64,000 nt of DNA, taken from assembly GCA_947165275.1 (NCBI GenBank), contig CAMUZQ010000006.1:1-64000 (forward strand). Direction: 5' to 3'. This DNA is from an uncultured Lachnospiraceae bacterium. Its GTDB lineage: Bacteria > Bacillota > Clostridia > Lachnospirales > Lachnospiraceae. This document shows, piece after piece, positions 5,306 through 21,403 of this stretch. Position 1 is the stretch's first letter; every line of letters begins with the position of its first letter. A model generated the notes under the pieces. The model did not search any database. It had not been told where the DNA came from and saw nothing but the letters and a program-made list of their open reading frames with translations. The position numbers and the translations under genes are program-made.

Positions 5306-6154
5306 TTAAGCTTCGTCTGTATCTGCGTCCCTCAGGAAACGATCTCCAAGATCAAGACAGTCTCCTTCACTTACGTCTAATTCCTCTGAAAGATATCCCC
5401 GGACAGATCCATACCTTTCTTCAAGTGTATCTATCGCATGCTCCATGAAATCCCGGATCACGCCGCCTGCCATGAAGAGATATACCCCGGTCTTCTCATC
5501 GGAAAAACCAGACTCTTCTGCCTGCCTCTTTGTTTCTGCAAGTTTTGATCCGTTAAAGATGTTCGTCATCATATAATCTTCAATTATCGTCTCTCGTGAT
5601 GCTCCTAACGCAGACAAAAGGAGCATCGATGCCAGGCCGGTACGGTCCTTTCCGTCCGTACAATGCCAGAGCAGGCTGCGGCCTTCTTCTGCTGCAAGAG
5701 ACTTCACTGCTTCGAAAAATCCCCTGTAGGCCTTCTTTCCCCTTTCCTTACAAAGAAAGTCAACATAGAGAGTATTGTTTATAAAACCCTTTTCGTAGAT
5801 TGTATTGAAACGATCCAAAGGCGTGGAACCGGGATCACTTACCACCTTTACGACCTCGGGATCAGGTTTGTCCATGTCAGCCTTTTCCAGAACCGGAAGA
5901 GCGATATGCATGCACCCCGGAACTTCTATATCCGGCATACTCTCCTGCTCCTCGCTCATACGGAAATCAACGATGTATAAAAGCCGGTACTTTTCAGCAA
6001 GGACCCCTGCGGAAGACTGTGCCTGATCAAGTCTCCCGGTCCGAAGAAAAGTATCTTTCACGATCACCTTATCTCCGATCCTGTATCCTCCGAGTTCCCG
6101 GGCATTTACCACTCCGTCAAGCCCTATACCGTATTGTTCAACAGCAGTCGCCAT
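5306..6154 (-). CDS. Tyrosine/dual-specificity protein phosphatase
   Basis: This 282-residue cytoplasmic protein has the Cys-based phosphatase loop HCTDGKDRTG at about 164-173 (Cys165, Arg171), the variant typical of bacterial PTPs of the Y_phosphatase3/MptpB type. The N-terminal 'NARELGGYR' is another hallmark of that family. It may act on phosphotyrosine or phosphoinositide-like substrates. It is the last gene of a long co-directional run, 21 bp after a SpoIIE-type Ser/Thr phosphatase. Two different phosphatases ending a unit that also encodes a STAS-kinase fusion suggests phospho-signalling within that unit; this link is inference. Confidence 0.85.
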   Translation of the reverse strand: MATAVEQYGIGLDGVVNARELGGYRIGDKVIVKDTFLRTGRLDQAQSSAGVLAEKYRLLYIVDFRMSEEQESMPDIEVPGCMHIALPVLEKADMDKPDPEVVKVVSDPGSTPLDRFNTIYEKGFINNTLYVDFLCKERGKKAYRGFFEAVKSLAAEEGRSLLWHCTDGKDRTGLASMLLLSALGASRETIIEDYMMTNIFNGSKLAETKRQAEESGFSDEKTGVYLFMAGGVIRDFMEHAIDTLEERYGSVRGYLSEELDVSEGDCLDLGDRFLRDADTDEA

Positions 6155-6175
6155 AATTGCCGTTTTTCCTCCTTC

Positions 6176-8005
6176 TCACTTTCCGCCATAGCCGTTCCAT
6201 CTGACACAGAGCATGGTGATATCGTCTGACTGAGGACATCCCTTCGTAAATCTTTCTAAGTCTTCTGAAACCCTGCGGCACACCGACTCGCAAAAGGCAT
6301 TATCATCCGTATCATCTGTATCCCCCGCGCATGAAGCGAGCAGGTTCAAAAGCCTTTCTTCTCCGTATTGTCCCCCATCCGGATCCATGGCTTCATTTAC
6401 ACCGTCGGTGTACAGGAAGAGACTGTCGCCCTTTTTCAGCCTCAAAGTCTGGGTATGGAAAGCAGTGTCTGCAATATATCCAAACATCAGCTCCTTGATC
6501 TTTTTAACGGATTTTGATCCTCTTTTACCGAATACTGCAGGGAAGGTGTGGCCAGCGTGAACGTATTGGATCACTCCCGTCTTAAGGTCAAGGAAACCGA
6601 TCCAGGCCGTAACGAACATCTCCATCTCATTATCTTCGCACAGCGCCCTGTTCGTAAGATCAGCCACCTTATCCGGAGACAGTCCGCTGCTCACATAAGT
6701 CTTTATCAGTGTTTTGGCCCGCATCATGAAAAGCGCGGCCGGCACACCCTTGTCGGAGACATCGGCTATGACAACAGCCAGCTTACCGTCCGGCAGAAGG
6801 AAGAAATCATAGAAATCGCCCCCGACCTGCTTTGCGGTATCCATCATCGCAAAAAGTCCGAATGACGTCTCATCGGGAAAAGGAGGAAAAACTGACGGTA
6901 CAGCCGACGTCTGTATCTGCCTTGCAAAATCAAGCTCCGCATCCGCCCTGGCCTGCATCTCGGTCATCTCCTTATTCCTGCGGATATGATCCTCGATCTC
7001 CTGTGCCATATCCGATATACCGTCGGCCAGCCTTCCCACCTCGTTGCCTGAGCGGACCTTTCCCATCCGCGCTCTTACTTCGTCCATGTCTTTATTGTCC
7101 GCATATTCCCTGACGCCCCGGTCGACAATGGACAAGGGACGTATTAGGGTAAGATACACTATCAGAAGTATCACGAGAAATATGAAAACTGACAGTATGA
7201 CAGCCCTTTTCATGATACGATGCGACCACTCGGTGTCCATGGATTCTATCGCCTTGGAGTTGATCCCGACTATTATATATCCATATATCTCACCTTCATC
7301 ATCCGTGAAGGGATAGATCTCCGCGCCGTAGTTCTTTTCGTCCGGGTCCGTACGCGCTATCCATCTATAGTTGTCACTCAGATATACCGGCATGTCATCG
7401 TCATTAAGCCTGGTCTTATCCTCCATGGGAAGGATGTCGATCGGATCTCCCGGAGAGTAGGGATAATTCTCTTCAATAGAGACCAGGATGTATGTCCTTC
7501 CGTCTTTTACACAGGCGATCATCGGCCCGTCCACCATATACTCCTGCGTATATTCCTCATTGGATTCGAATCCTTCCTTAAAATACCAGACGATGTAGCG
7601 ATAAAAGATCTTCGCATACTCTGTTTTATCCTCTTCACTCAAAACAGAAAGGAACTCGCCGGATCCCATGGTAGTCATATCACTGCCATGTGCGGTAACA
7701 AATGCTTGTAAACTGTTGACCAGATCCACACCTTTTACATCCTCCTCTGTATATTCCATTGTCTCAGGATGTTCCAGCCAGTAGGAGAAAAGCCATTTGC
7801 ACGGAGCTATATCCATAAGGTATTCGCCGATGTACTCCGCCTCCTGATAATTCTCTCTCGCTGTATTCGTCACGGTCTGAAACATTATGCCTCTCCAGTA
7901 CATGATCGAATTAAAAAGGATAAGGATGCCGAAACTGATCATGAGCATCAGCCCCAATTCAACCAGGATATGCGATCTGCGTTTTCTTTTTTTTTCGTCC
8001 CTCAT
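6176..8005 (-). CDS. Membrane sensor with HAMP and SpoIIE-type PP2C phosphatase domain
   Basis: The start at 8005 lies 4 nt after the upstream stop codon, which suggests coupling; a more upstream ATG at 8068 would overlap the previous gene by 59 bp. The roughly 609-residue product has a basic N-terminus, a first TM helix, an extracytoplasmic sensor of about 230 residues, a second TM helix (ending IVYLTLIRPL), a HAMP linker and a C-terminal PP2C/SpoIIE domain with 'GGDFYDFF', 'VIADVSDKGVPAALFM', 'YTDGVNEA' and 'DDITML'. Proteins of this RsbU/SpoIIE type dephosphorylate STAS-domain anti-sigma antagonists. A STAS domain is encoded four genes upstream (12480-13697), making it a candidate partner. 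Confidence 0.9.
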   Translation of the reverse strand: MRDEKKRKRRSHILVELGLMLMISFGILILFNSIMYWRGIMFQTVTNTARENYQEAEYIGEYLMDIAPCKWLFSYWLEHPETMEYTEEDVKGVDLVNSLQAFVTAHGSDMTTMGSGEFLSVLSEEDKTEYAKIFYRYIVWYFKEGFESNEEYTQEYMVDGPMIACVKDGRTYILVSIEENYPYSPGDPIDILPMEDKTRLNDDDMPVYLSDNYRWIARTDPDEKNYGAEIYPFTDDEGEIYGYIIVGINSKAIESMDTEWSHRIMKRAVILSVFIFLVILLIVYLTLIRPLSIVDRGVREYADNKDMDEVRARMGKVRSGNEVGRLADGISDMAQEIEDHIRRNKEMTEMQARADAELDFARQIQTSAVPSVFPPFPDETSFGLFAMMDTAKQVGGDFYDFFLLPDGKLAVVIADVSDKGVPAALFMMRAKTLIKTYVSSGLSPDKVADLTNRALCEDNEMEMFVTAWIGFLDLKTGVIQYVHAGHTFPAVFGKRGSKSVKKIKELMFGYIADTAFHTQTLRLKKGDSLFLYTDGVNEAMDPDGGQYGEERLLNLLASCAGDTDDTDDNAFCESVCRRVSEDLERFTKGCPQSDDITMLCVRWNGYGGK

Positions 8006-8009
8006 ACTC

Positions 8010-9416
8010 TCAGTCAAAGATCTCCTTATCCTGCGCAAAGCACCACATCCTCTTAAATCCTTGTTCATTCAGGGATTTGGTCATGGTGGATCCGCCGCAC
8101 TGTCCGGAATACATGAATGATTCACATCGTGACAGAAGATACAGCGCGTAAAAATAATTCGCCGTGGAATCTTCTATGAACTGATCGTAATCCTCGCCGG
8201 GATGGCGGAGGCTGTCAAGTTCGCTTATGGTCGTGACGCCCGCTTCTTTGAAATCTTCTATGCCGTATCTCTCCTGTGATATTGCACGGATCTTCCCGGG
8301 AAATGCCTCCACCATCTGCCTTAAGATATCACTGTCCTCGGTAGCAAGGAATATCCCGTCATAGCCGTCCTCCATCCACTCACGTATCTTCGGAAGTGCT
8401 GACTCGACTGTTACCGGAGCAGATGCGCCGCTCATCCCGGAGGCTATATAATCCGAACCCCGCAGAAGTATCCCCAGCATTCTCCTGTCACCAAACACGG
8501 CATCCCCATACTCCTTCATCTCGGCTACAAAATCCGGATTCAGTACAGAGATATCAAAGTCATTGCCGGATGAATAACGGAGCATTTTGGTGAAAAGTAT
8601 CCCGTAGTAATTTATGATGTATACTGTATTGCTCTCATCCGCATCAGACGGTGTAAGCTGCATATTAAAGTACTTTGTGATGATGCTGTCAGCATATCTC
8701 GAGCTTCCTGGACGGAGCGTGACCGTAAGGTTAAAACGCCTGAAGAAATGCTTCGCTCTCGCATAGATCGTGAGCACACTCCCTATCCCCTCGCTCCTTG
8801 CGACAACTATCTCAGCGTATTTCATCCGGTCCATGGGAAGAGACGTAAGCCACTGATATACAAAGATATGATGAAACAGCACCACCATATCCATCGTATA
8901 GAAATCACAGATAAAAGCCGACGGATAGAAAGATCGTATCACTCGAAGAGTACTGTGATCCGATGAGGGCGGTATCTCCTCTGTTATCTTAAGCCTTTCA
9001 TTTTCTTCATAAAACCACAGTATGCGGGGATCATGGCAGGAGACTGACAGAGATGTAAACCTCAGCAGCACTCCGATGAGCACTGCCGTATACTCATTTG
9101 CCTCCTCAAACCATACACTGTCAAAGCCTTCCAGGATATCAAAGCAGAGTCTGTCTCTGTCATATTCGTCATAGAAAAAATACGGCGGATACAGGGGATC
9201 TTTATGAAACAGAGGAGAATCGGGATAATCGGGGCTTGACCCGGCCCAGTTCTGATTCTCTATGTATTCGAGATTATAACGAAGGCCGTTCTCTCCCAAA
9301 ACGTGAAACTCCCGCTCTCCCTTAAGCACTGCATCGAGCGCCTTATGGAAGACATCCTCCCCGTGAGGTAATATCCTGTGATTGACTTCATCACTGTAAT
9401 CCCTGATCAAAAGCAT
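8010..9416 (-). CDS. Putative O-fucosyltransferase/NodZ-like glycosyltransferase
   Basis: This 468-residue protein has no obvious signal or TM segment. Its C-terminal half resembles GDP-fucose-dependent GT23/O-FucT folds: 'GILLRGSDY' (about 315-323) where those enzymes have H-x-R-R-x-D, then 'GIFLATEDSDI' (about 354-364), and near the end 'CESFMYSGQCGGSTMTKSL', like their acceptor-loop region. The N-terminal half ('GLRYNLEYIENQNWAGSS...') is unassigned. It may transfer a deoxyhexose or other sugar onto a product made by the ATP-grasp and acyltransferase proteins encoded upstream. The gene follows the ATP-grasp gene by 11 bp. The assignment is motif-based and moderate. Confidence 0.5.
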   Translation of the reverse strand: MLLIRDYSDEVNHRILPHGEDVFHKALDAVLKGEREFHVLGENGLRYNLEYIENQNWAGSSPDYPDSPLFHKDPLYPPYFFYDEYDRDRLCFDILEGFDSVWFEEANEYTAVLIGVLLRFTSLSVSCHDPRILWFYEENERLKITEEIPPSSDHSTLRVIRSFYPSAFICDFYTMDMVVLFHHIFVYQWLTSLPMDRMKYAEIVVARSEGIGSVLTIYARAKHFFRRFNLTVTLRPGSSRYADSIITKYFNMQLTPSDADESNTVYIINYYGILFTKMLRYSSGNDFDISVLNPDFVAEMKEYGDAVFGDRRMLGILLRGSDYIASGMSGASAPVTVESALPKIREWMEDGYDGIFLATEDSDILRQMVEAFPGKIRAISQERYGIEDFKEAGVTTISELDSLRHPGEDYDQFIEDSTANYFYALYLLSRCESFMYSGQCGGSTMTKSLNEQGFKRMWCFAQDKEIFD

Positions 9417-9427
9417 ATCTTTACTCC

Positions 9428-11104
9428 CTATATGCGCCTTCCGGTTATAACGCCTTCACTGTCCATATCCGGTGCCTCTATGGCGATATCCGAAGCCTCG
9501 CAAAGGATCTCCACGGATTCCGCTCCGCAGGGGAAATTCCTGTAAGTGCTCTCGGGCACATAGATATGTCCTCCGACCCTCAGCTTGTCTGCAAGAGCAA
9601 AGAATATCTCCGTCATGGTCTCAAGATCATTGTCTTTTGCATGCGGGATATCGAGTATTGCATGGGAATATCCCTCCTTTGCGTCCGATAAGGTCTTTGA
9701 ATCAACGATCGTAACGCCCGGAAGGTCATCTGTCTCCTCGGAATATACTATTATGCTCCCTACAGGATGTATCTTCTTTAAGAATCCTTTTATGTCAGGT
9801 ACGCTGCCTTCTTCCTTGCCTGACTTCCCTCCGTTGCCGAAATAGAGCATATCAAAATACAGACTCTCCGCCCTCTCCAGAAAATCCCTGTCGCGTATGA
9901 GCTGCCTCTCGTCCGTATTGGCAAGATAGACAACGCCCGCGCTCGTATCAAGATCCACGGTACGCGCAAGATGATCGGACACAGCCTTGCCGAGTCTTGC
10001 GTGACAGAAGCTTTTCTGCCTGCGTATCAGAGAAAGAACGGGAGCGGAAGTAAAATCTCTTTCTTCGTCTGATATGAGATGCTTCTTAAGGCCCTTTGCA
10101 AGGGGCCGGAACGGATCGTCTGCATGCTTTAAGAACTCGTCGGGATGAAGGTAAGCATCAAGCGCCAGATCGGTCTCATGATGTCCCCATATCCTGTCCA
10201 GAAACTGTGCCGGCATATCGCTTCCCATGGGCCGTGCATTGACCTCTATCAGCACCGGGCCATTCTTATCTATCATGAACTCACTGTGCACATTGCCGTA
10301 TCTCACGCCTACGGCATCAAGCACGTCAAAGGCATATCTTATAAGTCCACTGCAGCCGGTCTCCAGACGGCTCAGCGTCTCGGTATAATTGTAGACCATG
10401 CCTCCGCCTTCGACCTTTTTCTTGGAATGCTTCCACACCGCGGAAAGCTTGTGCTTTCCGTCATATGAGACCGTGTTCACGATGTATTCCGTGCCCACGA
10501 TCCTCTCCTGTAAAAGCATGCCTTCCTCTTCACCGCCCATATAGTTACCCGTGGAAAACACTTCATCATAGGCAGCAATGAGCTCCTCGCGGCTGTCACA
10601 GATTCGCACATCGACTGAGCTTGCGCCTCTATAGGGCTTCAGCACGCAACCGGTCAGGCCTTCCTCGTCATAGAATCCAAGCATCTCATCCCTGTCATGG
10701 ACTATCTTTCCTCTTATGCCGCGTATCCCGGCATCAGTAAGCGCCTTGTGCATAAGGTATTTATTTGTCATCTGAGGGATATTTGAAGTGCTGTTGCCGG
10801 GCAGTCCAAGGTCTTCGGCGAGCCTTATGGCAAGCTCCACTCCGAGATCAGCTCCGGGAAGTACGATCTTGGGATCGAGGTCCCTTACCAGAGCCAGTGT
10901 ATCTTCATAGCTGTCTGCTTCTGCATAGAATCCGGCTCTGTCACGAAATCTGTGCTCGATGGGCGATCTTACTCCTTCCATAAGGGCGAAGATGTCCTCG
11001 CTCCGCTTAGTCCACAGGACCACAGGATAGTATCCCCGCATTAAAATATCTTCGATGAAATTCACTCCGGTGGAAAAAGCATCGACTATCAGTATGTTCC
11101 TCAT
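9428..11104 (-). CDS. ATP-grasp carboxylate-amine ligase with extra C-terminal domain
   Basis: Residues about 1-110 form a PreATP-grasp Rossmann-like domain and about 111-330 the ATP-grasp proper. Visible are 'GCVLKPYRGASSVDV' (ATP-binding Lys), Glu275 and the metal-binding 'EVNARP' at 287-292. The family couples ATP hydrolysis to joining a carboxylate with an amine or thiol, as in dipeptide ligases. About 230 residues follow the core, longer than BacD-type ligases; the last part ('AILDIPHAKDND', 'LRVGGHIYVPE') looks like a degenerate methyltransferase-like Rossmann fold. It starts 3 bp after a second ATP-grasp gene. The substrate is unknown. Confidence 0.85.
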   Translation of the reverse strand: MRNILIVDAFSTGVNFIEDILMRGYYPVVLWTKRSEDIFALMEGVRSPIEHRFRDRAGFYAEADSYEDTLALVRDLDPKIVLPGADLGVELAIRLAEDLGLPGNSTSNIPQMTNKYLMHKALTDAGIRGIRGKIVHDRDEMLGFYDEEGLTGCVLKPYRGASSVDVRICDSREELIAAYDEVFSTGNYMGGEEEGMLLQERIVGTEYIVNTVSYDGKHKLSAVWKHSKKKVEGGGMVYNYTETLSRLETGCSGLIRYAFDVLDAVGVRYGNVHSEFMIDKNGPVLIEVNARPMGSDMPAQFLDRIWGHHETDLALDAYLHPDEFLKHADDPFRPLAKGLKKHLISDEERDFTSAPVLSLIRRQKSFCHARLGKAVSDHLARTVDLDTSAGVVYLANTDERQLIRDRDFLERAESLYFDMLYFGNGGKSGKEEGSVPDIKGFLKKIHPVGSIIVYSEETDDLPGVTIVDSKTLSDAKEGYSHAILDIPHAKDNDLETMTEIFFALADKLRVGGHIYVPESTYRNFPCGAESVEILCEASDIAIEAPDMDSEGVITGRRI

Positions 11105-11107
11105 GCT

Positions 11108-12454
11108 TCAGCCCTCCTTTTCCCTCAGCGCAGCCGTCAGAAAGTCCGGGATCTGATCGGGATATTTCTTCTGCAGAGCATCAAAACCGTCGAGAAGCTC
11201 CTGCATGGTGGCAAACCCGCCTATCACCGTATCATTGAACCAGAAAACATCCCGGCCCGGTATCCTTACTTCATACTGGATGACGCTCTTTATCGCCTGC
11301 TCTGCCGCTATCTTCTCCAGAGTCTTAAGCTCCACCTTCGGCATCTTGAACTGGCAGGCATAGGAGAGTCTGCTCACATCATTATAATCTCCGGCCGCTC
11401 CGACTGCCTCATCCACATAGACGTCATAGGGCAGACGGCCCTGAGAAGCCGTGATAAGCGTCGTAAGCCCCGACCAGCGGTTATTGATCTCAAGGATATA
11501 CCACTCGCCCCGAACGAGGACGAGATCCACCTCCATTATCCCGGAAAAACCCATAAGCTCCGCCAGCCTCTTAAGCTCTGCCATTACCTCACCGACCTTA
11601 AGTCCCTCATCCAGTATGGGACCGTATTTCAGGGTAGTCTGACCCAGAGGGTCATTCAGCTGTCCCGGGACTGTATTGAATATCCTGAAAGGAGGTGATA
11701 CATAATAGCTGCCGCGGTCTCCATGTACTTCGGCACCATACTCCTCGCCATCAAGGAACTGCTCTACGATCACATCCTCCGTGAGCTTATCGGACAAAAG
11801 ATACTCTCTTGCCTCCTCATAGCTTTTTGCTATGAATATGCCCATCGACGAAGATCCCGTCGTGCTCTTTATCACTACGGGCATGTCCATGTTTTCGATC
11901 TCCCACAGTATGTATTCCTGATATACGTTTCCCGTGCAGACATCGCCGAGCTTATCGGTAACAAAAAGCTCATGATGCAGGTACAGGGCATCCGGTATCC
12001 TGAACCCGTTCTCCTTTAATACCCTGTGTGTCCTTGCCTTGTCAAAGCAGTCGAGTGCCGTGTCCGCGGAATAACAGATCGTATCGATCCCGCGTTTTCT
12101 CAGGCCTTCCGCTATGGCTGCATCTCTCAGTCCGTTCCAGTCATAACCGCTCACGGGCCCCGGCATGGCGACAGCCATATCCGGCTCCTGACGCGCTACG
12201 GCATCCAAAAACTCGGGTAGTTTGGCATCCATCGGAAGCGTGATGAGCTTTATGTTCTTCGGCTCTTTTACGAGTTCCCCGTTTTGTATGTCGAGGAAAT
12301 ACCTGCCGCTAAGCTGCACTACGAGAGTGATCTCAACGTCCTTATGACGTCCTGCCACCTCGTCCCATTGTTCGGCCCATTTCGGGAATACGGTACAGTT
12401 GGAGCTTTTGTCTCTGTGTTTTGAATTGCTTGAGTATAATACGATCCTCTTCAA
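11108..12454 (-). CDS. ATP-grasp carboxylate-amine ligase
   Basis: This 448-residue cytoplasmic enzyme has an N-terminal Rossmann-like domain (1-135) and an ATP-grasp domain (about 136-345). Key sites are Lys196 in 'VVIKSTTGSSSMGI', Asp310, and Glu322/Asn324 in 'LEINNRWSG'. It is only distantly similar to its downstream neighbour: the N-terminal domains and metal loops differ, so they are likely two separate ligation steps rather than a recent duplication. A small C-terminal domain (about 350-448) may bind substrate. Tandem ATP-grasp ligases without any carrier protein or adenylation domain suggest a ribosome- and NRPS-independent peptide-like product. Confidence 0.85.
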   Translation of the reverse strand: MKRIVLYSSNSKHRDKSSNCTVFPKWAEQWDEVAGRHKDVEITLVVQLSGRYFLDIQNGELVKEPKNIKLITLPMDAKLPEFLDAVARQEPDMAVAMPGPVSGYDWNGLRDAAIAEGLRKRGIDTICYSADTALDCFDKARTHRVLKENGFRIPDALYLHHELFVTDKLGDVCTGNVYQEYILWEIENMDMPVVIKSTTGSSSMGIFIAKSYEEAREYLLSDKLTEDVIVEQFLDGEEYGAEVHGDRGSYYVSPPFRIFNTVPGQLNDPLGQTTLKYGPILDEGLKVGEVMAELKRLAELMGFSGIMEVDLVLVRGEWYILEINNRWSGLTTLITASQGRLPYDVYVDEAVGAAGDYNDVSRLSYACQFKMPKVELKTLEKIAAEQAIKSVIQYEVRIPGRDVFWFNDTVIGGFATMQELLDGFDALQKKYPDQIPDFLTAALREKEG

Positions 12455-12479
12455 GTCTCTCTCCTTTGTTATCTGTCTC

Positions 12480-13697
12480 TTACCAGTCCACAGCGCCCGT
12501 CAGTTCATCGATCATCGGGATGAAATTTGCTTTTGCGTCATCCACGCTCGCCTTTATTATCTCCTCGCTTGCGCCTCTGCCGAAATACGGAGCGAGCGCA
12601 ACCTTGAGCTTTGAATAATCGCAGATCTGCTTCTCGATGCGCGCTCTCTCCTCTGCAGTATAGTCTGCAAAATATCCCTCCATAAGCCGGTCCCAGGTGC
12701 GCTTTATAAGCTCCACGGGCATGCGTGTATGAAACTCGGCATATTCGGGTGACAGCTTTACAAGATTGACCTGTGTCGCCGCAGTCGCAAGGAAATCAAA
12801 CACAGGATGTCCTGTACTCATGTCGCCCATGTCTATCAGCATCAGTTCCCCATCCTGCACCATTATGTTATTGGGATGATAATCCCCGTGGATCAGCGTC
12901 TTCCTGTCGGGAACCGCTTCCACCAGCCCCCTGAGCTTTGATACCTCTTCATCGGTATAATAAATGCTGCATTCCTCAATTGCTTCCATGTAGATATCTT
13001 TTATCGGCAGGAACGCTCCTGTATCATCCTCTGTCTCATGTATGGTCTTGTAAAGGTCGATATATTCATTCACGTATTCATCATAAGTATCGGGATGATC
13101 CTTAAGCCGGATCGAAAGCGTATCTGCATCCAGAGCCTCAAAGACTATGCCGTAACGATCGGGTTTTCCCTCCTCCTCCATGATGGATACCATATATGAA
13201 AGCGCAGTCGGGATGCCGAAGATCAAAGCCTGCTTTGCAAGCTCCCTCTCTCTTTCTATCGTTTCAATGGGAGCTTTTTCGGCAAAGACTTTGACGATGT
13301 TTTCATTATCCAGCCGGTAAACCTCGCCGTTGGCTCCCTGAGCGATCTTCTGAAGTCCCTTCATATCATAATGCTTCACAGCCTTGTGGATATCAAAGAT
13401 ACTTGTAAGTCCCGTCTGATCAAGCAGATCCATGATCTCTACCGGTACATTAATGATACTTACTTTGCCCTTCTCTTTCTTCCTGAACTTCATCAGCACG
13501 CGAAGGCCGGCGCTGGATATGTATTTCACATGTTCAAAATCAAACACCGGTATCCCTTCCCGGTTGTCTGCGCGGATCTTATCGATCTTTTTTTCAACAT
13601 CATCACAGCTGAGCTTGTTGATCACGCCTTCAAGTGAGATAACGGCTTTAACTCCATCGCTTTCCGCAAGTCTTACATCATAGTCCTTTTCTGCCAT
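12480..13697 (-). CDS. STAS domain fused to an aminoglycoside-phosphotransferase-like kinase
   Basis: Residues 1-108 are a STAS (anti-sigma-antagonist type) domain with the conserved strand-loop 'VFDFEHVKYISSAGLRVLM'; Ser61/Ser62 match the phosphorylated serine of SpoIIAA/RsbV. Residues about 110-405 form an APH/choline-kinase-like domain: 'IAQGANGEVYRL' (Gly-rich loop), 'NIVKVF' (Lys), the catalytic 'HGDYHPNN' at 270-277 and 'LIDMGD' with Asp289. The enzyme probably phosphorylates a small molecule, or possibly itself or a partner. Direct fusion of STAS to this kinase type is unusual and would let a partner switch gate the kinase. The SpoIIE phosphatase of the same unit could act on Ser61/62; this is inference. 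Confidence 0.88.
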   Translation of the reverse strand: MAEKDYDVRLAESDGVKAVISLEGVINKLSCDDVEKKIDKIRADNREGIPVFDFEHVKYISSAGLRVLMKFRKKEKGKVSIINVPVEIMDLLDQTGLTSIFDIHKAVKHYDMKGLQKIAQGANGEVYRLDNENIVKVFAEKAPIETIERERELAKQALIFGIPTALSYMVSIMEEEGKPDRYGIVFEALDADTLSIRLKDHPDTYDEYVNEYIDLYKTIHETEDDTGAFLPIKDIYMEAIEECSIYYTDEEVSKLRGLVEAVPDRKTLIHGDYHPNNIMVQDGELMLIDMGDMSTGHPVFDFLATAATQVNLVKLSPEYAEFHTRMPVELIKRTWDRLMEGYFADYTAEERARIEKQICDYSKLKVALAPYFGRGASEEIIKASVDDAKANFIPMIDELTGAVDW

Positions 13698-13710
13698 TGC
13701 CTATCCTTTC

Positions 13711-14898
13711 TTATATGTGCATCTCCTGCACTTCTTTAACATACCGTTCCAAAACGTTTATCAGCTCCTTTTTGTATATCCTGCCTCCGCAGGAGTCAAA
13801 CCCGCTTATGTACAGAGCATCTCCGACTGCACTTCCGTATACCATCAGAGGGAATATGGCCGCTCCGGCATATACTCCTTTTACATGCTCCGCATAAGAA
13901 GCTCCGGCAAGCTCCCTGCCGAGATAGCTCACGAGGATCGCGTCCTGTCCCATGAGAGCACCGATAAGCTTCATCCGCTCTCCGGTATCCTCTGTGAATA
14001 AAACCTTGCGCCATTCGTTGAACTGCCATGCGACCGGATCCCGGCCGCTCTGCTTTTTTATTCCTTCCGCAGTCCTCTTCGCAAGATCCGTCTCATCGCC
14101 CAGGATCTCGTCCGGATCAAATACGATCCGCATATTTGCGATGCTCGCATTCTGAAACGTATACGGAGCATCAAACAGGTTTCTTGCATTGACCGGCATG
14201 CGGACGGACACATGGTCATATCCCCCGGGGAAGGACGATATAAGCGCCTTCAGGCTTAATATCGTAAGCGTTGTCTGACCGGAAGCGTTCCACCTTCCGC
14301 AAAGGTCCTTAAAGCCCGCATATGGTATCCTGATCATGAATGACTCGCACTCATTTTTATCCCCGCTCATCTGAAAGCTTAGATAGCTTCCGCCCGGCAC
14401 CGATGGTTCCCGGTACTCTTCCGATACAGGAAGTTCAAAAGCCATGAGCTCCCTGTCATAGCAGGGCTCGTCCGAAAAATGATATGCCCCCTGCTCCATC
14501 CCGAAATAGTGATCGAGAAGAGTCCTCACAGCCCAGAATATCCCGCATCCGTCTGTCAGGGCATGAGTTACAGCCACTGTGATGCTGTCCCCTGTATAGT
14601 ACACTATCGCAGAATGCAGATTATTCTCCGGCGTATTGATATCCTGCGATACATGGTCTGAAAGCACGAGCGGTAAAGGATTCTCCTCAAGCTTCAGGAA
14701 GAGTCCTTCATCCGGCACCACATTATAAGAAAGAAACGGACAGTCCGCTTCCGTCTCCTCCAGCGCCTTCTCTAGTCTCTCCGGATCAACCGGACTGTCA
14801 AGCTTCACCCTGATATGGGGATTAGTTTCCACAAGATGGCGGTTCTTCTCAGACATCCCTATGAGCGATCCGGAATACAGTCTTGGATCTTTGATCAT
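13711..14898 (-). CDS. Condensation-domain/alcohol-acetyltransferase-like acyltransferase
   Basis: The 395-residue protein carries HALTDGCG (His112, Asp116, Gly117), matching the HHxxxDG-type active site of NRPS condensation domains, WS/DGAT and alcohol acetyltransferases. The start ('RLEKALEETEADCPFLSY') has the usual acyltransferase N-lobe form in which substrates are ranked by a 'P-F-L-x' loop. It should transfer an acyl group to an amine or hydroxyl acceptor. It is a free-standing enzyme with no carrier protein beside it. Its start overlaps the stop of the related upstream gene by 4 bp, so the two are coupled and may form a heterodimer. Confidence 0.75.
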   Translation of the reverse strand: MIKDPRLYSGSLIGMSEKNRHLVETNPHIRVKLDSPVDPERLEKALEETEADCPFLSYNVVPDEGLFLKLEENPLPLVLSDHVSQDINTPENNLHSAIVYYTGDSITVAVTHALTDGCGIFWAVRTLLDHYFGMEQGAYHFSDEPCYDRELMAFELPVSEEYREPSVPGGSYLSFQMSGDKNECESFMIRIPYAGFKDLCGRWNASGQTTLTILSLKALISSFPGGYDHVSVRMPVNARNLFDAPYTFQNASIANMRIVFDPDEILGDETDLAKRTAEGIKKQSGRDPVAWQFNEWRKVLFTEDTGERMKLIGALMGQDAILVSYLGRELAGASYAEHVKGVYAGAAIFPLMVYGSAVGDALYISGFDSCGGRIYKKELINVLERYVKEVQEMHI

Positions 14899-16166
14899 GG
14901 AAATACCACTCCTATATTATTCTGTTTTCTGTTCTTTTCTATAGCTTCCACTTTAAGGCCTTCTTTTTCCAGCTCTTTTATATAAGCATCGATAACGGGG
15001 GCATTTTCATTTCCGTGGAGCAATGATACAAAGAACCTGCCGTTTTGAGCAAATATCACCGTACCGCTCTTGTTTGATACCGAATCCAGTATGAGATCCC
15101 CGACGTATCTTTCAATCCCGGGAACATCGAGTCTGCCGACATAGCTGACCAGCGCGCTTGGCACCATGTCTGCTATCATGGAATTCTTAAAATAGAACTG
15201 TATCTTTTCTTCAAGCGTAGGGAGCTTATCCATTTTTGTCAGTGTATCCTGTTCTTTTTTCAGAAGCCTGTCTGTCGCTCCCGGATCCCTCTGCTCCTTT
15301 ATCATGCTCCTTCCCTTACCGCAGAGTGCTTCTGTATCCAGCTCACTGTCCTCCTTTGATATCACGAAATGCAGGAATTTGGTGACAAGCGACATGCTCT
15401 CGGATATGCCGTATCTGTCGCTCACATCGCATGCGATACCCATGTCGATGTATTCAGGAACCTCCTTAAGACAGCTTACTATCGCTCTGTAATAGATAAC
15501 CGCAAACCACACGGCAGGAGAAGCCTTGCAGGCCTTTACCCGCTCTATCACGCTTTCTTCCTTCAGCGTGATCGTTGTCCTGAAAAATCCCTCTTCTCCA
15601 CTGCCCCTAAGTCCGCTCTCAAGTACAGACGGCAGGATGGGCTTTATTTCAGGAGAAAACCCCGGCCAGAGCACCGGCGTATCATCAGGGATCTTATCAA
15701 AGGGCTGGATCAGCTCCTCTCCGGGCATACACGGCTTATAGGGCTTCCTTACCCCCTCCCAGGCAGGCTCTTCACCGTAACGGTCCGTGACATACTGATA
15801 CAGGACGGTAAGACACCATCTCAAAAGGCCCCGTCCTCCTCCCAGATTATGGAGCAGAGTGAAATAAATGCAGTCATCTTCAAAGTCCACGCACAGCAGA
15901 TGCCCGTTCATCTCATCGCTGCCGAATGAAGGCATGGGATATGACGTCTTCATGACAGGGACCGGGAGCGGATTATCCTCGAGCACAAAGGTGCCGTTAT
16001 CAACCGCGATCCTTTTCTTAAGATAGGGATAACGCTTCATTGCACTCTGTACCGATCTTAGCAGTATATCCCCGTCCACGGTATCCTTCATCCTGAAGCG
16101 GTAGCGCATGGTCAGAGCGCCTACAACCTTCATCATGTATAAAAGTCTGGTGTTATAATCGATCAT
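14895..16166 (-). CDS. Condensation/acyltransferase-like protein with altered active site
   Basis: This 423-residue protein has the same general fold signs as its downstream neighbour (N-lobe 'LLRSVQSAMKRYPYLKKRI', bridging 'ALVSYVGRLDVPGIE'). In place of HxxxDG it has HNLGGGRG (His106 kept; the Asp position is Gly110). The loss of that aspartate suggests it is a structural partner, a pseudo-enzyme or uses different chemistry. It overlaps the active-site-intact homologue by 4 bp. It follows the ABC exporter gene by 32 bp, the largest gap in the run but still short. Confidence 0.7.
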   Translation of the reverse strand: MIDYNTRLLYMMKVVGALTMRYRFRMKDTVDGDILLRSVQSAMKRYPYLKKRIAVDNGTFVLEDNPLPVPVMKTSYPMPSFGSDEMNGHLLCVDFEDDCIYFTLLHNLGGGRGLLRWCLTVLYQYVTDRYGEEPAWEGVRKPYKPCMPGEELIQPFDKIPDDTPVLWPGFSPEIKPILPSVLESGLRGSGEEGFFRTTITLKEESVIERVKACKASPAVWFAVIYYRAIVSCLKEVPEYIDMGIACDVSDRYGISESMSLVTKFLHFVISKEDSELDTEALCGKGRSMIKEQRDPGATDRLLKKEQDTLTKMDKLPTLEEKIQFYFKNSMIADMVPSALVSYVGRLDVPGIERYVGDLILDSVSNKSGTVIFAQNGRFFVSLLHGNENAPVIDAYIKELEKEGLKVEAIEKNRKQNNIGVVFP

Positions 16167-16198
16167 ATATTACTTCTGCGCCTCCGTTTCTCCTGAGT

Positions 16199-17956
16199 TC
16201 AGGCTGTGCCCGTCTCGCACAGTCTGCTGTATGCCCCGCCAAGCCTTATCAGCTCTTCATGTGTCCCGCGCTCGATTATCCTTCCGTGATCGAGGACCAG
16301 GATGCAGTCGCTGTTCTTAACTGTCGACAGTCTGTGCGCTATCACAAAGGAAGTCCTTCCCTTCATAAGATTATCCATACCCTCCTGTATGAGGCGCTCT
16401 GTCCTGGGGTCCACGGAGCTCGTCGCTTCATCAAGTATCAGGACAGGCGTATTTGCGGCAACGGCTCTTGCGATATTCAGAAGCTGCCTCTGTCCTTCCG
16501 CCAGACTGTCTGCGTCATTTGTGAGCACGGTATCATATCCGTCAGGAAGCCCGGTTATAAAATCATGTGCATTAGCCGTTTTGGCAGCCTCTATGCATTC
16601 TTCATCCGAAATACCGGGATTCCCGAAGCGGATATTATCATATATCGTGCCGGTAAACATATGTGTATCCTGCATGACAAGACCTATAAGATGTCTTAGA
16701 TCCTTCTTGTCTATTGCGGACACAGGGCTGGAATCTATAAGTATCTCGCCGCTGTCGATCTCATAGAACCGGTTGAGCAGATTGGTTATGGTGGTCTTTC
16801 CCGACCCCGTGCTGCCGACTATTGCTATCTTCTGTCCCGGATCGGCTCTCAGACTTACGTCATACAGTATCTGAATACCGGGCACATAGCTGAAGTTCAC
16901 GTTCTTCAGTTCTATCTGTCCCTCAGGCTTCCTGCCGTCGAATGAGATCTCTCCATCATAACTCTCCGCTTCCTCATCGATCATGTCAAATATCCTCTTT
17001 GCGCCGGCAAGCGCCGTCACGATCGAATAAAGCTGTCCCGAAGCCAGTATCACCGGAACGTTCATGGTCTTTGCAAGGCTCAGGAATGCGATCGTTTTGC
17101 CTATCGTCATACCGCCCCATCCGTTTATCACAAAGACCGCGCACAAAACAGCAAACGGAAGATAAAATATGAGACTTCCGGACTGCATGTTCATGGCAGT
17201 TATTATCCCCGTATACTTTATGGCTTCAAAGGCGCTCTTTCTTAGTTCCTCATTCTTCTCCCTGAATTCCCTGAGACACTCCTCTTCTCTGCCGAATACC
17301 TTTACCACCTTCTGCCCGCTTATGATCTCCTCCGTAAAACCGTTAAGACTTCCGAGATCCTCCTGCTGCTTTGTATAATATCCCCTGGCTGAAGTCAGGA
17401 TCTTCATGCTGGCCCCGGTAACAACAGCAAGGAGTAAAAGAGCCAGCAGAGCCAGCGGGATGTTCAGGATAAGGAGCACGATGACTATCGCCACTGCCGT
17501 GAGTACGGCCGAAAAAAGATATGGTATGCCCTGACTCAGCATGAGCCTCATCGCATCTATATCATTGGAATAGATGCTCATTATCTCTCCTCTCGTATGA
17601 GTATCGAAATACTTCAGCGGAAGCCTCTCCATCTTCTCAAAGAGATCCTTCCTGAGACTGTAGAGGATATCATGTGACAGCCTTGCTGCCGTGCTTCCCT
17701 GGAGATAGGTCGCGGCCCCTCCCAGGACAAAGAGCACCAGCATACCGCCAAGTGCGGAAAGAAGTGCCCTGAAGCCTTCGGCTTTATCTTCCATGTCGAT
17801 CAGAGGAGTGATATATTTGTCCACGAGTTCGGACAGGAATGCATACACAAGCACCGATGTCAGAGATGAGATCACGACACAGGCTAAGAGAAGCATGAAC
17901 AGTCCTTTTCTGTGGGATGTTATGTATCTTATGAGTCTTTTAAGTGTATCCTTCAT
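16199..17956 (-). CDS. ABC exporter half-transporter, catalytically intact subunit
   Basis: This 585-residue type IV exporter half has six TM helices (about 1-320) and an NBD (about 345-585). The Walker A is GSTGSGKTT (381-389), Walker B 'VLILDE' with catalytic Glu510, and the H-loop His541. Its signature motif is LAEGQ instead of LSGGQ. With the next gene it should form a heterodimer with one consensus and one degenerate ATP site, as in TM287/288, BmrCD and LmrCD exporters. It could export the product of the ATP-grasp/acyltransferase genes downstream, or a toxic compound. The genes are 10 bp apart. Confidence 0.93.
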   Translation of the reverse strand: MKDTLKRLIRYITSHRKGLFMLLLACVVISSLTSVLVYAFLSELVDKYITPLIDMEDKAEGFRALLSALGGMLVLFVLGGAATYLQGSTAARLSHDILYSLRKDLFEKMERLPLKYFDTHTRGEIMSIYSNDIDAMRLMLSQGIPYLFSAVLTAVAIVIVLLILNIPLALLALLLLAVVTGASMKILTSARGYYTKQQEDLGSLNGFTEEIISGQKVVKVFGREEECLREFREKNEELRKSAFEAIKYTGIITAMNMQSGSLIFYLPFAVLCAVFVINGWGGMTIGKTIAFLSLAKTMNVPVILASGQLYSIVTALAGAKRIFDMIDEEAESYDGEISFDGRKPEGQIELKNVNFSYVPGIQILYDVSLRADPGQKIAIVGSTGSGKTTITNLLNRFYEIDSGEILIDSSPVSAIDKKDLRHLIGLVMQDTHMFTGTIYDNIRFGNPGISDEECIEAAKTANAHDFITGLPDGYDTVLTNDADSLAEGQRQLLNIARAVAANTPVLILDEATSSVDPRTERLIQEGMDNLMKGRTSFVIAHRLSTVKNSDCILVLDHGRIIERGTHEELIRLGGAYSRLCETGTA

Positions 17957-17966
17957 AGATCCCCCT

Positions 17967-19676
17967 TTAAGATACTCCGCAGAGATCCCTGTATATCCCG
18001 TTTGTCTTTATCAGCTCCTCGTGGGTGCCGAACCCGCTCACGCGTCCTTTGTCCATTACAAGTATCTTGTCCGCATCATGTATGGAAGCGACCCGCTGGG
18101 TGATGAGGATCTTCGTCACGTCGGGCATGTCGGTCTTAAGACTGTGCAGGATCCTTGCCTCGGTCTCGTTATCCAAAGCAGAGAGTGCGTCATCAAGTAT
18201 AAGTATCTGAGGCTTTCTGACAAGCGCCCTTGCAAGGCACAGTCTCTGTCTCTGGCCTCCCGAAAGATTGGAGCCGCCCTGCTCTATATATTCATCATAT
18301 TTATTTTCCTTTTCCTCAATAAAGGTATCCGCGCAGGCCATGGCGCAGGCTTTGCTGCACTCATCATATCCTGCATCCTTCCTGCCCCAGCGCAGGTTAT
18401 CAATGATCGTGCCTGAAAAGAGCACATTCTTCTGCAGGACTACGGCAATCCTGTCAGACAGAGCCTTCATGGAGTACTCCCTCACATCCTTCCCGCCGAC
18501 CTTCACGCTTCCTTCGGTGACATCATACAGGCGGCTTATGAGATTAACGAGCGAACTCTTGGATGAACCTGTCGCTCCGACTATGCCTATCATCTCACCG
18601 GGAGCGAACTTAAGGCAGATATCATCCAGCACGTTACGGCCTGCTCCCCTGCCGTAACGGAAAGATACATGATCGAACTCCACCGAATTATCCTGCATGG
18701 AAGCAACCGCCTCTTCAGCCTCCCTTATCGAAGGCTCTGTTATAAGCACTTCCTTAACTCTCGCAAAAGAGGCAAAGCTTGCCGACACCTGCACAAAACT
18801 CAATACAAGCGTCGAGATGTATGTCATGATCTGAAAAGCATAGTTGATGAAACCTGCCAGATCTCCCGTCGTCATATCACCCGCGCTAATATATCTTGCT
18901 CCGATCCAGCTGATGCCCACAAAGCAGAATTCAAGCGCTGTCATCATCACGGGATTATTAAGTGCCTGAAGCTTTTCGACCTTTATAAAGCCCTTTCTGA
19001 CAGATGCTGCCGGCTCATCAAAGCTTAAGCACTCGTCCCTCTCCCTTGCAAAAGACTTTACGATCCTGATCCCCGTAACATTTTCCTGTATCTTGCCGTT
19101 GAGCCTGTCATACTCTCTGTATACCTTTTGATATATCGGCACAGTGATCCTGATGATAAGGGAAAGAAAAACAGTGATGATCAGCACTCCGATGAGCAGG
19201 ATAAAACTAAGCCGTCTGTTAAGGGTGGTCGTAAGATAAAGAGCATAGATCACGGCTACGGGAGTTCTGAAAAAGGAGGTCAGAACGGTCTGCGCAGTAT
19301 TCTGGATATTTGTCACGTCAGTCATGGTCCGGGTCACGAGACTCGCAACCCCGAACCTGTCCAGATCCGCAAAAGAAAAGGACTGTATCTTCCCAAACAC
19401 AGCCTCTCTCAGGTTTGCCGCCAGTCCGCTGGAGGCTTTTGCCGATGTAAGATAGCCAAGAAATGCAAAGATAAGCGTCCCGAGTGCCAGGACGAGCATG
19501 ATCTTACCCCAGTAAAAGACCGCGTTCATATCGCCTGCTGATATGCCGTCGTCGATTATATGTGTCGTTATAAGCGGTATCATCGTCTCAAGTATGCCGC
19601 TTATGATCATAAGTACCGGAGTCAGGATAAAGACATTCCTGTATTGCTTTATCTGCTTAAAGACGGGGTTCTTCAA
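17967..19676 (-). CDS. ABC exporter half-transporter, degenerate-site subunit
   Basis: This 569-residue exporter half has six TM helices and an NBD. It has Walker A GATGSSKSS (367-375) and an intact LSGGQ (471-475). Its Walker B ends in Asp496 (ILILDD) instead of Glu, and the switch His is replaced by Gln527 (TQRVAS). That is the complement of the partner: the consensus site would use the partner's Walker A/B with this LSGGQ, and the degenerate site the reverse. It starts 3 bp after the response-regulator stop, so regulator and exporter are co-transcribed. Confidence 0.93.
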   Translation of the reverse strand: MKNPVFKQIKQYRNVFILTPVLMIISGILETMIPLITTHIIDDGISAGDMNAVFYWGKIMLVLALGTLIFAFLGYLTSAKASSGLAANLREAVFGKIQSFSFADLDRFGVASLVTRTMTDVTNIQNTAQTVLTSFFRTPVAVIYALYLTTTLNRRLSFILLIGVLIITVFLSLIIRITVPIYQKVYREYDRLNGKIQENVTGIRIVKSFARERDECLSFDEPAASVRKGFIKVEKLQALNNPVMMTALEFCFVGISWIGARYISAGDMTTGDLAGFINYAFQIMTYISTLVLSFVQVSASFASFARVKEVLITEPSIREAEEAVASMQDNSVEFDHVSFRYGRGAGRNVLDDICLKFAPGEMIGIVGATGSSKSSLVNLISRLYDVTEGSVKVGGKDVREYSMKALSDRIAVVLQKNVLFSGTIIDNLRWGRKDAGYDECSKACAMACADTFIEEKENKYDEYIEQGGSNLSGGQRQRLCLARALVRKPQILILDDALSALDNETEARILHSLKTDMPDVTKILITQRVASIHDADKILVMDKGRVSGFGTHEELIKTNGIYRDLCGVS

Positions 19677-19679
19677 TAG

Positions 19680-20360
19680 TCATGCCTCAAATTTGTAGCC
19701 TATGCCCCAGACGGTTTTTATCATTTCACCCTTTTCACCCATTTTTGCGCGGAGCTTCTTGACATGTGTGTCGATAGTACGGGCATCACCGAAATAATCA
19801 TAATTCCATACATTATTAAGGATCTTTTCGCGGGAAAGGGCAAGCCCTGCATTTTCCATGAAATACTGAAGGAGCTCAAACTCCTTGAAGGAAAGATCTG
19901 TTTCCCTGCCGTCGATCGTACACGAATGCGCCCCCGTATCGAGTGTTATACCGCCGATCTCAAGTCTTTTTCCGTCGCCGATCGCATTTGACCTCCTGAG
20001 GATCGCATCTACTCTTGCAACAAGGATGTTTGGTGAGAATGGCTTTGAAATATATTCATCAGCTCCGAGATCAAACCCCTGGAGCTCATCCTTTTCTTCA
20101 CTCTTTGCAGTCAGCATGATCACAGGTGTCTTTGAATACTGTCTTATCTCCTTCAAAGTCTGATAGCCGTCCATAACCGGCATCATCACATCAAGTATCA
20201 CAAGAGAAATGTCCCCGTCCTCATGCTCGAAGAATATATCCACGGCCTTACGGCCGTTTTCGGCCTCCAGAACCTCATAATCCTTCTTTCTCAGGAAATC
20301 ACCTATAAGCTTCCTCATTCTTGCTTCATCATCTACGATCAGTATCTTAATCCTGTCCAT
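19680..20360 (-). CDS. OmpR/PhoB-family response regulator
   Basis: The 226-residue regulator has a receiver domain (1-120) with the acidic pocket Asp10/Asp11, phospho-acceptor Asp57 in 'VILDVMMPVMDG', Thr84 and Lys106. A winged-helix output domain (about 130-226) ends in 'TVWGIGYKFEA'. No histidine kinase is adjacent; the nearest kinase in the window is at 62792-64000. Its start lies inside the end of the one-TM protein gene (14 bp overlap), and the ABC exporter follows by 3 bp. It probably controls the run it lies in, although no operator could be identified. Confidence 0.93.
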   Translation of the reverse strand: MDRIKILIVDDEARMRKLIGDFLRKKDYEVLEAENGRKAVDIFFEHEDGDISLVILDVMMPVMDGYQTLKEIRQYSKTPVIMLTAKSEEKDELQGFDLGADEYISKPFSPNILVARVDAILRRSNAIGDGKRLEIGGITLDTGAHSCTIDGRETDLSFKEFELLQYFMENAGLALSREKILNNVWNYDYFGDARTIDTHVKKLRAKMGEKGEMIKTVWGIGYKFEA

Positions 20361-20994
20361 TTTTTATCGCTTCCTCTTTCTCTCTGAGTGCTTTTTCTCT
20401 CTCCGTCAGGGATTCCTCCCATTCGGCATACTGGTTCTCTATAGCGGTTTTATAATTTATGATATTGGGATTGTCTGAGCTTCTCGCAACCATAAACATG
20501 GCTGCGACCAGACATATTGAAATTACAGCGACTGCAACGGCTATCCTGTACTTGCGCTTAAGGTTTTTATTCTCAGCTACAAGATCCGTGGTAACTCTGG
20601 GTCTTGCCTCCGCTCTTGCTTCGTTTCTTGCCCTCTGGGTAAAGAGCGAGCCTGTCTCGATAGGCCTTATCCTCTCCGGATCTATCGAACCGCACTCCAC
20701 AAGAAATTCCCTTACCCTCATAAGAAAATCCACGCCGACAGGCGTGACAAAAAGACCGTTCTCGATCATCTTGTGATATATCGCAAGCACCTCTTCAGGA
20801 TTGTCCTTATTCATCCGCTGGCTTATATAGACCATTTTCTTATATTCTTCCTCGGCGGTCTTAGCATCTGCCAGTGCCGAAAACCTGAAGCCCCTTACGG
20901 TAAGAACATCGTCCTTGATCTTCTCTGCCCCATCCTTTTTTGCTTCTTTCGGGACGGCCCCTGTATTCTCTTCAGCTTTTTCCTGTGCTTCCAA
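20347..20994 (-). CDS. Unknown single-pass membrane protein with charged flanks
   Basis: I do not recognise this 215-residue protein. Residues 1-145 are charged and helical with a block '[32 protein letters not shown]' split here as about residues 67-98. One TM helix spans about 151-170 after a basic KRKYR stop, and a charged tail follows. The N-terminal part should be cytoplasmic. It overlaps dut by 23 bp upstream and the response regulator by 14 bp downstream. Lying where a sensor kinase would be expected, it might feed a signal to the regulator, but nothing in the sequence shows a kinase or receptor domain. Confidence 0.75.
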
Positions 20995-21403
20995 ACCCGC
21001 CCCTGTCCTGTCCGTCTAAATGCTCCGACTCTTCAAATTCTATCACCGGCTGATGCTCAAATATCCTGAACTGACATATCCTGTCATTTATATGTATCTC
21101 AGTATCCCTCAGCGCATATACAGGCATGAACCACTGGTCGTTGTCTCCGCAATATGACTCATCTATTACCCCGCAGGAATTTGTCTGTATCACGCCGAAA
21201 TTCTTAAAGGTGCTCGACCTGGGAACAACATGCGCCTCATATCCCTCAGGCAGCTGCATAGCTATCCCCAGAGGTATCAGATGAAACTCTCCGGCCCTGA
21301 GGCTTACATTCTCCGCTGAACGCAGGTCGATCCAGTCGCTTTTGCCGTCAATATACCTGAGACGCTCGATCTCATCGGAAAAATACCTGATCCTGATCTT
21401 CAT
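20972..21403 (-). CDS. dut: dUTP diphosphatase (dUTPase)
   Basis: This 143-residue trimeric-type dUTPase hydrolyses dUTP to dUMP and pyrophosphate, keeping uracil out of DNA. Motifs are in order: 'DLRSAE' (motif 1), '[10 protein letters not shown]' (motif 2), '[14 protein letters not shown]' (motif 3), 'DRICQFRI' (motif 4) and the Gly-rich C-terminal '[11 protein letters not shown]' (motif 5). The catalytic Asp is in motif 3. The gene begins 3 bp after sufS and runs into the next gene by 23 bp. It is an ordinary housekeeping gene lying between SUF and the regulator/exporter genes. Confidence 0.92.

Follow-up and report, generated by a model that had tools for sequence, protein, structure and literature searches.

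A co-conserved Lachnospiraceae gene cluster combining ATP-grasp ligases, acyltransferases, a fucosyltransferase-like protein and an exporter with a SpoIIE/STAS-kinase pair

Introduction

What is produced by a gene cluster that holds two different ATP-grasp ligases, two acyltransferases, a fucosyltransferase-like protein and an exporter, and what is the role of the SpoIIE-type phosphatase and the STAS-kinase fusion encoded among them? The question is raised by contig CAMUZQ010000006.1 of an uncultured Lachnospiraceae bacterium, of which the first 64,000 nucleotides, here termed the window, were analysed. Window positions 5306–20994 contain 12 open reading frames (ORFs), all on the minus strand. 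In transcription order these encode a protein with one transmembrane segment (TM, starting at 20994), a response regulator (RR), two exporter half-transporters (ABC1 and ABC2), two acyltransferases (C1 and C2), the STAS-kinase fusion (STASK), the ATP-grasp ligases AG1 and AG2, the fucosyltransferase-like GTx, SpoIIE, and a tyrosine phosphatase (PTP, ending at 5306). From RR to PTP, the gaps between ORF coordinates are 3, 10, 32, -4, 13, 25, 3, 11, -59 and 21 bp. A preliminary description had counted thirteen co-directional genes with gaps of at most 32 bp. The common direction and tight spacing stand, while the count is reduced to 12 ORFs, as thirteen is reached solely by including a dUTPase gene that overlaps TM. 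The cluster proper consists of ten genes, from ABC1 to PTP (5306–19676).

These ten genes probably make and export a small acylated, fucosylated amino-acid or peptide compound without a nonribosomal peptide synthetase (NRPS), under the control of a SpoIIE/STAS-kinase phospho-switch. As domain anatomy, the earlier summary of ATP-grasp, acyltransferase, fucosyltransferase and exporter genes with SpoIIE/STAS-kinase phospho-control is borne out. The cluster is real and coherent, its kind is recognisable, and it belongs to a larger family coupled to the switch. It is apparently undescribed: among the papers listed by literature searches that did not extend to subscription papers, none has a title or abstract opening that describes this combination.

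Conservation of the ten genes

The ten genes form a co-conserved cluster. The search with C1 covered 99 genomes, 28 of which gave any match. Among the 48 genomes of the genus, C1 orthologues (at least 53%) occur in 8, AG1 (at least 76%) in 8, where it is split across two contigs in G004, and GTx (at least 70%) in 9. AG1 and GTx are found together in 8 of the 48, the window's own genome included. In the ninth GTx genome, G022, AG1 is cut off by a contig end after its first 83 residues, and this genome was excluded from the count. Fisher p values, uncorrected for genome kinship, are 2e-8 for AG1 with GTx, 4e-6 for GTx with C1 and 6e-5 for AG1 with C1. In G018, ABC2-C1-C2 lie on a short contig, and AG1 and GTx are unmatched.

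The core genes remain together in rearranged order, both within the genus and in another genus, as the co-conservation check proposed in the preliminary description shows. The window order is ABC1-ABC2-C1-C2-STASK-AG1-AG2-GTx-SpoIIE-PTP. G027 and G025 share the order C1-C2-ABC1-ABC2-STASK-AG1-AG2-GTx, after which come a PTP-family gene and SpoIIE, and G006 has the same core minus C2. Of two relatives whose records bear no MAG label, Lachnospiraceae AC3007 carries all ten genes and AD3010 the core. Locus L039 reads C1-C2-ABC1-ABC2-AG2-GTx-STASK-AG1-SpoIIE. In G391, which belongs to another genus, the order is ABC1-ABC2-STASK-AG1-GTx-SpoIIE-PTP-SpoIIE-C1-C2, with AG2 unmatched. Between the window and G391, the most diverged proteins are C1 (41%), C2 (29%) and SpoIIE (32%), followed by STASK at 59% and by AG1, GTx, ABC1 and ABC2 at 70–74%. 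The position of G391 differs between gene trees: the ABC2 tree joins it to the window clade (support 1.00), the GTx tree to the G027 clade (0.99), and the AG1 tree to L045, L046 and G013. These conflicting placements suggest exchange of parts.

Exporter, ligases and transferases

ABC1 (17967–19676) and its partner ABC2 (16199–17956) are exporter half-transporters; ABC1 carries ABC_membrane and ABC_tran domains by Pfam. ABC1 orthologues match at 63–96% in cluster loci and at 57% in one fragment, and ABC2 orthologues at 66–94%. Pfam likewise supports the two ATP-grasps, the STAS-APH fusion, SpoIIE, the Y_phosphatase3 protein and the OmpR-type regulator, all as first read from the sequence.

AG1 (11108–12454) is a rare ATP-grasp ligase that reaches generic ATP-grasp models only, and is among the best-conserved core genes (69–92% in full-length orthologues, 46% in a G013 paralogue). 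A wide spread of AG1 was considered and rejected: it was found in 3 of 397 family genomes and, of 299 genomes of the phylum, only in that of the window, in a search that scored at most 4 or 5 candidates per genome and may have missed some. AG2 (9428–11104) is an L-amino acid ligase-type ATP-grasp that has a C-terminal extension. Its profile matches PDB entry 30vh over the ATP-grasp core (E 1.2e-42, profile positions 65–406), and by sequence it is homologous to L-amino acid ligases over that core.

C1 (14895–16166) is a stand-alone acyltransferase, which by its structure model (pLDDT 76.6) has the two-lobed fold of condensation domains and CoA-dependent acyltransferases. The model has 247 PDB matches at E<=0.001, with TM-scores of 0.42–0.55. 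Judged by title, the best 50 of these 247 are C, E and Cy domains of NRPS, PapA5, wax-ester synthase, BAHD and similar proteins, apart from one, the AzeD dehydratase, whose superfamily is not evident from its title. C2 (13711–14898) is a stand-alone condensation-like protein in which the His, Asp and Gly of HxxTDG are kept in 8 of 8 aligned rows. By hhalign, C1 and C2 are related at 98%, and C2 and NRPS C domains at 83%; C2 is placed in the superfamily, by profile, through its hhalign match to C1 alone. Two condensation-like acyltransferases, as originally called, are thus supported by a predicted fold for C1 and by profile kinship for C2.

GTx (8010–9416; 468 residues) resembles, in a weak structure model, the GT-B fucosyltransferase fold of the NodZ/FUT8/POFUT type at residues ~194–465, with no assignment for the part N-terminal to these. 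This agrees with the initial fucosyltransferase-like call, less firmly than the fold of C1 is supported. One GTx homologue scores 18.7 bits with FUT8_N_cat, below the cut-off of 27.6. Sequence searches of the PDB with the C1, C2 and GTx profiles gave no significant match, C1 and C2 stay below all Pfam and NCBIfam cut-offs, and no relative of GTx was confirmed in viral_contigs. Separately, fusions of ~890 residues that join GTx-like fucosyltransferase and condensation-like acyltransferase domains occur in 12 of the 48 genus genomes (L085:5113-7788, with relatives L096–L100 and L102); the L085 copy has no Pfam match.

At Pfam E values up to 0.05, the 12 proteins match no AMP-binding or PP-binding domain, in keeping with the stated absence of adenylation and carrier domains.

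The putative phospho-switch genes

STASK (12480–13697) consists of a STAS domain fused to an APH-like kinase domain by Pfam, and is related to TIGR02172, below the cut-off. The Ser pair of its YISSAGL motif, the predicted phospho-acceptor, is present in 40 of 40 aligned rows from 36 distinct loci (four loci were fetched twice, and rows shorter than 340 residues were excluded). The kinase motifs HGDxHxxN and DM are kept in most rows, with L086 and L112_345 as clear deviants. SpoIIE (6176–8068) is a PP2C phosphatase (Pfam SpoIIE, 2.3e-48) whose N-terminal half weakly matches histidine-kinase linker regions; SpoIIE genes are present in the clusters of other genomes too. PTP (5306–6154) is a Y_phosphatase3 protein by Pfam with an HCxxGKDRTG motif, and its Cx5R is retained in seven relatives (L038, L184, L040, L041, L044, L082 and L187, with L183 left out). 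The cluster therefore appears, by sequence, to contain both a PP2C phosphatase and a STAS protein with an acceptor Ser, the pair expected of a partner switch.

Of 397 family genomes, 40 encode STASK or its kinase domain. At 25 STASK loci outside the cluster, several of them short contigs, the genes within 4 kb include SpoIIE at 7, small STAS at 6, HD at 5 and MATE at 2, compared with 0, 1 and 1 for SpoIIE, STAS and MATE beyond 4 kb. No match to AG1, AG2, C1, C2, GTx or NRPS was found within 4 kb of these loci. A stand-alone APH-like kinase related to STASK (L087, G000:C75:3795-4646) is located near two large genes for ABC exporters, which by sequence reading resemble bacteriocin exporters, another possible link between this kinase family and export.

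The wider AG1 family

The linkage of AG1 to switch genes recurs beyond the cluster. In total, 19 AG1-family loci were found: the window, G041, RUI433, Tb.RUG.8, G027, G028, G006, G025, RUG14180, RGIG4371, Tb.RUG.371, G040, G004, G022, G391 (twice), G013, G003 and G012. A SpoIIE or STAS/STASK gene lies alongside in 18 of the 19, and the ligase and the switch therefore constitute a module common to several assembly lines, NRPS clusters included. Nine genomes have between 3 and 24 SpoIIE matches each, so a single AG1-SpoIIE adjacency could be due to chance. For the 18 of 19 together, chance is informally judged unlikely.

Three of these loci contain an NRPS. In RGIG4371 (L046), the Pfam order is SpoIIE-STASK-AG1-GH3-GT2-NRPS, followed, as read from the sequence, by two genes for ABC exporters and the beginning of an AMP-binding-like gene. 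G013 (L184) carries an NRPS (by BLAST to that of L045), AG1 (46%), STASK, PTP (55%), a MATE with HATPase, and a 448-residue AMP-ligase-like protein below the cut-off. In RUG14180 (L045, a 10.5 kb contig), a 1958-residue NRPS lies immediately upstream of AG1. The suggestion that the set fits no biosynthetic class must therefore be softened, and the window system is better regarded as an NRPS-free relative of a wider family.

Other loci of the family join AG1 to a MATE exporter: STAS-MATE-AG1 (35%)-SpoIIE in G003, STAS-MATE-AG1 (31%)-SpoIIE-HATPase in G012, and PPTase-MATE-AG1 (30%)-SpoIIE at the second G391 locus. A MATE with a C-terminal HATPase_c_2 domain, RsbW/SpoIIAB-like, is supported by Pfam in L113, L127, L184 and L197; the tail in L185 is not called by Pfam. 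What we take to be the N-box Asn and the G1-box Asp look lost in the tails of L185, L186 and L084. Full-length matches to the MATE-HATPase profile number four in the window genome, and others occur in G291, G494, G613 and G508 (two); by genome, the count is 5 of 199 in the phylum. Three copies in the window's own genome lie outside the window (G000 L195:8576-10429, L196:5128-6954 and L197:10184-11944). L197 (G000:C68) is a second switch-linked cluster of that genome, with two SpoIIE genes (one partial), two STAS genes and a 1995-residue NRPS-like protein beside the MATE-HATPase exporter.

Proposed pathway and control

From this gene content we infer substrates, order of steps and product, together with the target of the kinase and the direction and target of control. 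AG2 and AG1 would each activate a carboxylate as an acyl phosphate and form amide bonds. C1, C2 or both would then move acyl groups onto the product, from CoA or a housekeeping carrier, and GTx would attach a deoxysugar, most likely fucose from GDP-fucose. The finished product would be exported by ABC1/ABC2. On the control side, the APH-like kinase domain of STASK, replacing an RsbW-type kinase, may phosphorylate the conserved Ser of its own STAS domain, and SpoIIE, upon sensing a signal, may remove this phosphate. The state of the STAS domain would gate assembly or export through partner binding.

Several findings weigh against this reading. C1, with the motif HNxxxGRG, retains the His and lacks the Asp of HHxxxDG in 8 of 8 aligned rows, its profile matches NRPS C domains at only 12% by hhalign, and its fold matches stay within TM-scores of 0.42–0.55. 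The GTx model has a mean pLDDT of 54 and Foldseek TM-scores of ~0.2–0.3, and the window GTx stays below every Pfam and NCBIfam cut-off. None of the cluster's genes determines the acyl donor. The absence of AG2 from the G391 cluster and of C2 from G006 means that neither gene is universal. By Pfam, no HATPase_c_2 kinase of the RsbW/SpoIIAB type is present in the 12 proteins, and no sigma factor in the cluster, so the canonical partner switch is incomplete; elsewhere, the window genome has 11 HATPase_c_2 matches, 7 above the cut-off. RUG14180 is an AG1 locus without a switch gene. The window genome holds 14 SpoIIE matches, and some proximity is therefore expected by chance. Finally, several of the 19 AG1 loci are closely related to one another, and the 19 are not independent.

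A more specific and more tentative proposal, which we hold to be possible but short of even odds, is that the direct target of the switch is a transporter or ligase, not a sigma factor, within an export-coupled assembly-line family. In the sister clusters, the MATE exporter ends in an RsbW-like HATPase beside STAS, SpoIIE and an AG1-type ATP-grasp; in the window cluster, the ABC exporter and STAS-kinase fusion would fill these places. If so, the compound would be made and exported under a post-translational switch.

An unlikely alternative is envelope decoration, in which the enzymes would build a surface lipid or polymer unit bearing acyl and fucose groups, ABC1/ABC2 would act as a flippase, and nothing diffusible would be made. 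The best NCBIfam model for ABC2 is MsbA and those for ABC1 are MsbA-type, all below cut-off; the acyltransferase-fucosyltransferase pairing suits glycolipids too, and the fold matches of C1 include a mannosylerythritol-lipid acyltransferase. However, two ATP-grasp amide ligases point to peptide chemistry, as does the occurrence of AG1 with STASK, SpoIIE or PTP within NRPS-containing loci, and among the ten genes Pfam identifies neither a polymerase nor a sugar-nucleotide enzyme.

Still less probable is a self-protection cycle, in which the STASK kinase phosphorylates the compound inside the cell, PTP or SpoIIE dephosphorylates it around export, and the STAS domain merely docks. The APH-family fold, the mostly retained HxD..N and DM-type motifs of STASK, and the SpoIIE and PTP-family genes in most of the fuller clusters would suit such a cycle. 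It is opposed by the breadth of STASK in the family, by the 25 outside loci, some with SpoIIE, STAS or HD genes and none with a biosynthetic match within 4 kb, and by the invariant acceptor Ser pair. Anti-phage defence was also rejected, as ten proteins (all but ABC1 and ABC2) gave three weak partial PADLOC matches of 16–20 bits. A chance operon of unrelated genes is highly improbable and is rejected: TM and RR, formerly counted in, are indeed unrelated, but the ten genes recur as a group, differently ordered, in other species and in another genus.

The favoured reading, of an NRPS-free acylated and fucosylated product under a phospho-switch, defines, in Lachnospiraceae of the rumen and gut, a compact type of peptide/acyl/sugar cluster, and links such assembly lines to a phospho-switch usually studied in the regulation of sporulation and of stress sigma factors. 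If export is gated by the switch directly, partner switching would gain a new, testable output, and AG1 with STASK would serve as markers for clusters that domain-rule tools based on adenylation or ketosynthase domains may miss.

Comparison with known systems

BacD (bacilysin) and DdaF (dapdiamide) are ATP-grasp ligases of NRPS-free peptide pathways. The window cluster is similar to these pathways in having an ATP-grasp, AG2, that belongs to the L-amino acid ligase family and in lacking adenylation and carrier domains. AG2 scores 122.7 bits compared with 840 for DdaF, and 18.2 compared with 850 for BacD. Unlike these pathways, the cluster pairs two dissimilar ATP-grasps with two acyltransferases of the condensation type, and adds a protein of fucosyltransferase fold and the STAS-kinase/SpoIIE pair.

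Nod-factor decoration and export use NodA, NodZ and NodIJ. Acyl transfer, the NodZ-type fucosyltransferase fold and ABC export are shared with the cluster, as a comparison of workings only; the cluster has no matched chitin synthase or deacetylase, and has ATP-grasp ligases instead.

Partner-switching modules are typified by SpoIIE/RsbU, SpoIIAA/RsbV and SpoIIAB/RsbW. They are alike in combining a PP2C phosphatase with a STAS domain bearing an acceptor Ser, whereas the window kinase is an APH-like domain fused to STAS. In SypA/SypE, the STAS protein SypA is reported to be the downstream part of the switch (PMC10120452).

The NRPS-containing loci L045, L046 and L184 have AG1 in common with the cluster, with STASK in two of the three and SpoIIE and PTP in one each. 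They differ in their adenylation, carrier and condensation domains (by Pfam in L045 and L046, by BLAST in L184).

Flanking genes

The TM protein and the OmpR-type regulator had been taken as control parts of the system. Their membership is rejected, as they form a genus-wide pair independent of the cluster. A TM (20347–20994; no Pfam match above cut-off) homologue is found in 33 of the 48 genus genomes, and RR (19680–20360; Pfam) lies close to it in 13 of 14 other genomes inspected, ~1.5 kb apart in G027 and adjacent elsewhere. In the fourteenth, G005, the locus ends before any RR is visible.

Upstream of the cluster are SufC/B/D/S-like genes, by sequence reading, and the dUTPase gene (20972–21403; Pfam), and a malic-enzyme-like gene, by sequence reading, follows downstream. 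G033 has the order dUTPase-TM-RR-malic enzyme, with ~65 bp between RR and the malic enzyme gene, and its homology to the window ends within the final codons of RR. This arrangement is an empty site, and ABC1 to PTP therefore sit between RR and the malic enzyme gene in the window, for which insertion is the simplest reading. The 12 genes are complete and in the same order in sister species G041, which also shares the RR-ABC1 junction but has different outer flanks and its dUTPase on a different contig.

The GC content of the cluster (0.47–0.51) is close to that of the flanks (0.44–0.49). No tRNA and no Rfam family at the gathering threshold was detected in the window. Promoter-like sites (25 observed, 25.2 expected) are uninformative; terminator-like sites number 27 compared with 13.1 expected in shuffles, the majority being intragenic. 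Window positions 19680–21403 themselves represent a genus-wide dUTPase-TM-RR group with an uncharacterised one-TM protein, and the dUTPase precedes TM in 8 of the 14 other genomes (G044, G022, G023, G033, G005, G026, G013 and G029).

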